A stretch of DNA of 64,000 bases, from positions 186,001 to 250,000 of the forward strand of contig NZ_CP059215.1 in NCBI RefSeq assembly GCF_014252295.1, given 5' to 3'. The notes under the pieces are model-generated. The model was given only the letters and a program-made list of their open reading frames with translations. It made no database searches and was not told where the DNA came from. Shown here piece after piece: positions 54,962 to 55,755 of the stretch. Numbering within the stretch: the stretch's first letter is position 1; each line of letters opens with the position of its first letter. The stretch comes from Blattabacterium cuenoti (GTDB lineage: Bacteria; Bacteroidota; Bacteroidia; Flavobacteriales; Blattabacteriaceae). Both the position numbers and the translations under genes were made by a program.

Positions 54962-54982
54962 AATCAATAATTAATTTATTAG

Positions 54983-55054
54983 TAGCCCATAGGGGAATCG
55001 AACCCCTCTTTCCAGGATGAAAACCTGACGTCCTAACCAATAGACGAATGGGCC
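54983..55054 (-). tRNA. tRNA-Glu (anticodon TTC)
   Basis: Complete cloverleaf on the minus strand: acceptor GGCCCAT with ATGGGCT, D-arm with GGTTAGGAC, anticodon loop TTTTCAT between CAGG and CCTG, T-loop GGTTCGATTCC. Discriminator A, CCA not encoded, 72 bases. First acceptor pair is G-T. Confidence 0.96.
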
Positions 55055-55091: not shown

Positions 55092-55125
55092 TTTGTATTC
55101 AATACAAGTATTTTATTTATATTTG
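55092..55125 (+). promoter_or_regulatory. predicted promoter of the NlpC/P60 gene
   Basis: TTTG at 55092-55095 and TATATTTG at 55118-55125 with 22 bases between, a good match to the Bacteroidetes -33/-7 promoter. Transcription would start near 55131, well upstream of the first ATG of the hydrolase at 55357 but just before the in-frame extension at 55156. A 15-base palindrome (TTGTATTCAATACAA, 55093-55107) overlaps the -33 box. Confidence 0.55.
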
Positions 55126-55155
55126 ACATTATTGGAATTACTTTTTGAAATTTAA

Positions 55156-55356
55156 AATTTATTAATTATCCTTAATAAAAATAGAATTTTCTTACTTATA
55201 ATTTTTTACTATCATTTCATTTCTGTATCTGTATTTTCTTTATATGGAAATGAAAAACAGAAATATGGAAAAACATTTTTTCGAAAAAAAAATTATGATA
55301 CATGCAGTGATAATTACAAAAATTCGAAAAATTATTTTCAAATTTTTAACAAAAAA
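55156..55356 (+). other. in-frame, signal-peptide-like extension of the NlpC/P60 gene lacking a canonical start codon
   Basis: This holds most of the ~300-base stretch between tRNA-Glu and the annotated ATG. In the frame of the hydrolase there are 67 codons without a stop, from just after TAA at 55153. They encode NKNR followed by the hydrophobic run IFLLIIFYYHFISVSVFS and a polar linker. No ATG, GTG or TTG occurs in it; ATT at 55165 or ATC at 55168 are the only near-start codons in the right place. The rest of the stretch (55055-55155) holds a predicted promoter and nothing else I could identify. Confidence 0.6.
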
Positions 55357-55755
55357 ATGATCCTTGAAAAGGAATTTCTTATAGAAAAAGCAAAAAATTA
55401 TATGTTTACCCCATATAGATTTGGAGGAAAAACAAAATCTGGAATTGATTGTTCTGCTCTTATAAAAAATATATTTGCTTATTATAAAATATCTTTGCCA
55501 AGAATTTCTTATCATCAAGCAAAAAAAGGTTGTTTTATTCCTAAAAAGAGGATAGAAAAAGGAGATTTATTATTTTTTGCGACAGGAACATCGAAAAAAA
55601 TAAATCATGTAGGAATGGTAATTAACGTTAATTCCAAGGACATATTTTTTATCCATTCTTCTACATCTAGTGGTGTAATAATTTCCCAATTATATCAAAA
55701 AAAATACTGGCATAATAGATTTATTATGGCAAGAAGAATTCTTTATTCTTCATAA
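55357..55755 (+). CDS. NlpC/P60 family cell-wall hydrolase
   Basis: Papain-fold peptidase of the type that cuts peptidoglycan stem peptides. Counting from this ATG, the catalytic Cys is residue 32 in SGIDCSALIKNIF, His84 is in INHVGMVIN and the third polar residue His100 is in FFIHSSTSSG; all three are intact. PYRFGGKTKSG precedes the Cys as usual. As a 132-residue protein it would have no signal peptide. The upstream extension described separately probably belongs to it. The end overlaps convergent aroA by 13 bases. Confidence 0.85.
   Translation: MILEKEFLIEKAKNYMFTPYRFGGKTKSGIDCSALIKNIFAYYKISLPRISYHQAKKGCFIPKKRIEKGDLLFFATGTSKKINHVGMVINVNSKDIFFIHSSTSSGVIISQLYQKKYWHNRFIMARRILYSS

Follow-up and report, generated by a model that had tools for sequence, protein, structure and literature searches.

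The infC gene, which encodes IF3, starts with AUU, AUC or AUA in E. coli, Streptomyces and S. aureus. Another non-canonical start, that of Streptomyces sigR, is used in a genus that, unlike Blattabacterium, has Shine-Dalgarno sequences. IF3 represses both infC and sigR, the latter initiated at GTC (PMC5472188). In S. aureus, ribosome profiling and reporters identified AUA starts for infC, ccpN and citZ; AUA and AUU starts there give about a tenth of the expression obtained from AUG, with ccpN reaching up to 30% in rich medium (PMC13009471). For Listeria, the order of start codons is ATG > ATA > ATT (PMC13068326).

The window analysed here is a stretch of 64,000 bases (bases 186001-250000) of a Blattabacterium genome that consists of a single contig of 624,952 bases. 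Blattabacterium is an endosymbiont that lives inside the cells of cockroaches. Within the window, we compared an NlpC/P60 gene lacking a conventional start codon ahead of its signal segment with its counterparts in sister genomes. The gene is likely an intact one for an exported hydrolase, with translation predicted to begin at a near-cognate AUH codon. In most Blattabacterium this would be AUA, and in the window AUC 55168 or AUU 55165.

The feature is real and conserved, and its kind, that of conserved near-cognate start codons, is already known. It resembles infC in this respect, but nlpC does not encode a translation factor, its putative start varies among ATA, ATC and ATT, and no autoregulation is expected for it. 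Streptomyces sigR is likewise a gene outside translation whose start is non-canonical throughout its genus (PMC5472188); its control by IF3 was demonstrated experimentally, whereas for nlpC such control is only plausible. The same codons are found at S. aureus ccpN and citZ (AUA) and cvfC1 (AUU), with a roughly ten-fold attenuation relative to AUG, but those sites carry extended Shine-Dalgarno motifs, whereas Blattabacterium has no anti-Shine-Dalgarno (PMC13009471). As to the protein, NlpC/P60 lipoproteins of free-living Flavobacteriaceae (L120, from a Maribacter MAG, and L121) have the same domain, an N-terminal signal segment and a linker. At the corresponding place they have an ATG and a lipobox-like signal segment ending in Cys, as does L180, a family member with a larger genome, whereas the Blattabacterium signal has neither the Cys nor an ATG.

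The NlpC/P60 frame and its predicted product

The features of the locus are collected in Table 1. The NlpC/P60 frame (frame 1) is limited upstream by a TAA at 55153-55155 and, as the sequence-only reading had stated, it then stays open for 67 codons without an ATG, GTG or TTG until the ATG at 55357. That reading considered such openness unlikely by chance, and the calculation agrees: the probability of a stop-free stretch of this length is ~0.003, whether estimated from genome composition or from a first-order Markov model fitted to the region. The missing ATG, GTG and TTG are not evidence by themselves, since 11% of the internal 67-codon windows in the genes of this genome lack them as well. 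An out-of-frame ORF of 38 codons (window 55244-55360, + strand) ends in a TGA that overlaps ATG 55357 as ATGA, and coupled internal initiation could take place there in this genome only.

Table 1 Features of the nlpC/P60 locus (positions are those of the window)
Feature	Position	Strand	Basis or remark
tRNA-Glu (TTC), divergent neighbour	54982..55054	-	ARAGORN
-33 element TTTG, Bacteroidota-type promoter	55092..55095	+	Sequence
-7 element TATATTTG (TAnnTTTG)	55118..55125	+	Sequence
Putative 5' leader	55131..55164	+	Transcription start predicted from the promoter
Whole open frame, stop codon included	55156..55755	+	Sequence; stop at 55753-55755
ATT ATC, where translation most likely starts	55165..55170	+	Exact codon presumed
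Signal-peptide-like segment, NKNR and 18 hydrophobic residues, without lipobox Cys	55174..55239	+	Sequence
Linker, genus-wide motif KYERI(S/F/Y)FRKKK, window version KYGKTFFRKKN	55240..55407	+	Alignment
First in-frame canonical start, ATG	55357..55359	+	Sequence; no counterpart in sister genomes
NlpC/P60 domain (PF00877)	55408..55737	+	Pfam, E 7e-25

The promoter, TTTG-N22-TATATTTG, is located exactly where it had been placed in the sequence-only reading, and a TAnnTTTG box precedes the gene in 27 of the 29 loci checked. The window leader consists of A and T only, bar a few G or C.

The segment that follows the putative start opens with NKNR (55174-55185), after which come 18 hydrophobic residues (55186-55239), again as originally described. 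Its typical sister version reads (I)I-NSKI-LLIIFYYHLISISLYGN, continuing into KYERIxFRKKK. In one sister copy (L036, from genome G037) the linker contains about four tandem copies of FLYSDKKKSIKNH. The domain itself scores 87.5 bits with PF00877, for which the curated cut-off is 23, and covers profile positions 2-105 of 105. Its predicted catalytic Cys codon (55450-55452) lies within a DCSAL motif, and by inspection the window and the 29 aligned sequences all have the putative Cys-His catalytic motifs DCSA, NHVG and FIH. The best reading of the product is a predicted exported NlpC/P60 peptidoglycan hydrolase, and the window gene is the one NlpC/P60 gene found in this genome. Signal peptidases of families S26 and A8 are encoded as well. 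Because the signal lacks the lipoprotein-like Cys of the relatives, it probably either serves as an anchor for the protein or allows its release.

Conservation of the upstream segment and its boundary codons

To place the frame in context, we turned to a Blattabacterium sample of 49 genomes; the gene was matched in 33 of these congeners, and 30 of the loci entered the comparison. All 30 genomes with an intact gene, the window included, have an open upstream frame encoding the same signal segment. Relatives whose upstream frame is broken by stops, a finding that the sequence-only reading had named as refuting it, were sought, and none was encountered among the intact copies: across 29 aligned genomes (window included) the segment contains no in-frame stop, while its other two frames contain 0-4 and 2-12 stops. 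The dN/dS of the upstream segment is 0.55 for close pairs; when the window is compared with five relatives it is 0.23-0.46, and that of the NlpC/P60 domain is ~0.23. These values are descriptive, since the pairs are not independent. The upstream signal segment is under purifying selection. There was no match in 16 of the 49 congeners, and three further copies (L181-L183, in G008, G033 and G035) are shortened, decayed or damaged; the gene is therefore dispensable in some lineages.

In 26 of the 30 genomes, the stretch from the predicted transcription start to the signal segment contains no canonical start. Three others (L027, L030 and L034) have an in-frame TTG 39 bases upstream of the segment. 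It had been suggested that sister genomes might reveal an ATG in place of the rare codon, but only L031 has one, and there it precedes the conserved NSK segment by 30 bases (10 codons). At the opposite extreme, the first in-frame canonical start of L037 corresponds to residue 167, past the catalytic Cys at residue 113, so that the protein could not be made from a canonical start there.

Just ahead of the NSK segment lies a two-codon slot that contains ATA, ATT or ATC in every copy (30 loci). In first place 27 of them have ATC or ATT and the other three GTT, and in second place 25 have ATA. All three GTT copies have the ATA, and the five copies without it (the window, L015, L027, L036 and L038) all have ATC or ATT. 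The counts were made by eye, with L032 shifted by one codon, L014 added and the window taken on an alternative alignment. The invariance of the ATA alone is weak proof of a start, because some internal Ile columns are just as invariant; more telling is that it sits where conservation begins.

The window itself lacks the ATA kept by most sisters. What it has is ATC 55168, preceded by ATT 55165 and followed by CTT, with both the ATT and the ATC in frame. Allowing for one extra codon downstream, as in L028, ATC 55168 aligns with the ATC or ATT of the sisters, and it was counted as the first codon of the slot; MAFFT had set it one column earlier. Owing to this placement and to the consecutive hydrophobic codons, the choice between ATT 55165 and ATC 55168 is ambiguous.

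Alternative routes to the hydrolase

The sequence-only reading had left two options, namely a start at ATT 55165 or ATC 55168, or a recent loss of the start after which the wall hydrolase would be made without export. The former is supported, as the signal frame is kept throughout the genus without a canonical start and one of ATA, ATT or ATC is always found at its boundary; the latter is not. It would have the protein made from ATG 55357 without its signal, perhaps by re-initiation coupled to the ORF at 55244-55360. Although such a start would leave the NlpC/P60 domain whole and the ATGA overlap would permit coupling, we consider it very unlikely, given that the sisters too are without canonical starts, that ATG 55357 is not conserved among them and that the upstream segment is also selected in the lineage of the window. 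With 30 conserved frames, 26 of which lack a canonical start, and with the first canonical start of L037 coming after the catalytic Cys, we conclude that the start was not lost recently and that the ancestral state was not a cytosolic product made from ATG 55357.

Poly(A) slippage has been proposed for other AT-rich endosymbionts, and it could restore the frame if initiation took place at a canonical codon out of frame. The genus does have genes that are split at poly(A) tracts, runs of A7-A11 lie just ahead of the segment in some sisters, and ten further copies have a theoretical route through an A or T run of at least 7. Nevertheless, in 15 of the 29 copies none of the frames that a run of at least 7 could join to the segment offers a canonical start. 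The window, whose leader contains no such run, is one of these, and slippage was rejected for it; as a general explanation it is highly improbable.

The open frame could also be a relic, the gene being a pseudogene decaying across the whole genus. The 16 genomes without a match and the three damaged or shortened copies would fit such a decay, but we give it hardly any credence in view of the 30 intact copies, the purifying selection on both domain and upstream segment, and the conserved promoter box. Finally, initiation at the in-frame TTG 55132, directly after the window promoter, followed by read-through of the TAA at 55153, is scarcely conceivable: when every copy was checked, the position of the stop and the peptide upstream of it varied among the sisters, several of which have no TTG or GTG there, and read-through was rejected for the window.

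Other boundary codons and initiation without Shine-Dalgarno pairing

To find out how widespread such starts are, we scanned 563 ortholog groups common to four genomes (G000, which is the genome of the window, G031, G027 and G022) for protein sequence that is conserved ahead of the first canonical start, the latter being determined for each genome separately and the condition applying to all of them. An earlier criterion, which required the four genomes to share one canonical column, proved too strict, yielding 190 false candidates, and was replaced. Once frames that overlap an upstream gene, lie antisense to rRNA or belong to a gene split at poly(A) had been removed, the pattern proved rare, with four groups left: infC, glnS, nlpC/P60 and a sanA/YdcF-like gene, the last in three of the four genomes.

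Outside the window, at 184760-185348 (- strand) of G000, infC has ATA as its boundary codon in 29 of 29 genomes (loci L214-L242). For glnS (453399-455067, + strand; loci L184-L213) the codon is ATA in 26 of 27, a count made after reading two shifted rows, with L209 shifted by two codons; the exception, L204, has ATT together with an in-frame TTG. In both genes the codons ahead of the ATA vary freely, and in many genomes the first in-frame ATG, GTG or TTG of glnS comes only after the HIGH motif. The sanA/YdcF-like gene (589771-590362, - strand) has ATA AAA as its boundary codons in three genomes, while the fourth, G000, has an A10 run in their place and could use slippage from an ATG. It seems that glnS and infC likewise start at a rare AUH codon, as perhaps does sanA, judging by these boundaries. 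Along with nlpC/P60, glnS and perhaps sanA are apparently new members among the conserved non-canonical starts; a literature search, with partial coverage of the literature, returned no report of such starts in Blattabacterium.

Two other genes are interrupted at or near poly(A) tracts in all four genomes. A deaminase-like gene (G000 136772-137156, + strand) is split at exactly 11 A, as are its orthologs in G031, G027 and G022; the N-terminal part ends ...SFC and the remainder opens KKKVGA, and this is likely a conserved poly(A) slippage site. The rnpA gene (G000 133088-133340, - strand) is broken near its tract.

The 3' end of the 16S rRNA reads GGCTGGAACATCTCTTTT in the four genomes, so that the anti-Shine-Dalgarno has been lost: no CCTCC was found at the 16S 3' end of G000, G031, G027 or G022, where the sequence is GGCTGGAACATCTCTTTTTTT. 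Such a loss has already been reported for Blattabacterium (PMC6107228). Among 178 genes with a conserved ATG, only 6 have a Shine-Dalgarno core; the region upstream of these 178 is A-rich, with 54-64% A at -17 to -10. The genome encodes one standard initiator-like tRNA-CAU, whose anticodon stem contains GGG/CCC and whose position 1 is C, as well as an IF3 with both domains.

For the preferred reading, an intact nlpC/P60 gene with an AUH start, transcription would begin just past TATATTTG and the 30S would bind the short A/T-rich leader without Shine-Dalgarno pairing. The fMet-tRNA would then initiate at the AUH codon through a third-position mismatch, and the N-terminal signal segment would route the product through Sec. 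Such initiation is presumably weak and its yield low, and IF3 may limit it further, as for infC; by analogy, IF3 sensitivity of the nlpC start is plausible. Whether the four genes form a group is a more tentative matter: that infC, glnS, the sanA-like gene and nlpC/P60 are kept genus-wide on AUH starts as an IF3-sensitive regulon, in a lineage without Shine-Dalgarno pairing, is possible but rather doubtful.

Gene finders admit ATG, GTG and TTG only, and genes with such AUH starts are therefore likely to be annotated as truncated. With its HIGH motif upstream of the first canonical start, the essential glnS gene offers a natural case for start choice without anti-Shine-Dalgarno pairing. For nlpC/P60, the position of the start decides on the export of the only NlpC/P60 enzyme of the genome, and, if the genes did form a regulon, the start codon would be one of the few translational controls left to Blattabacterium.
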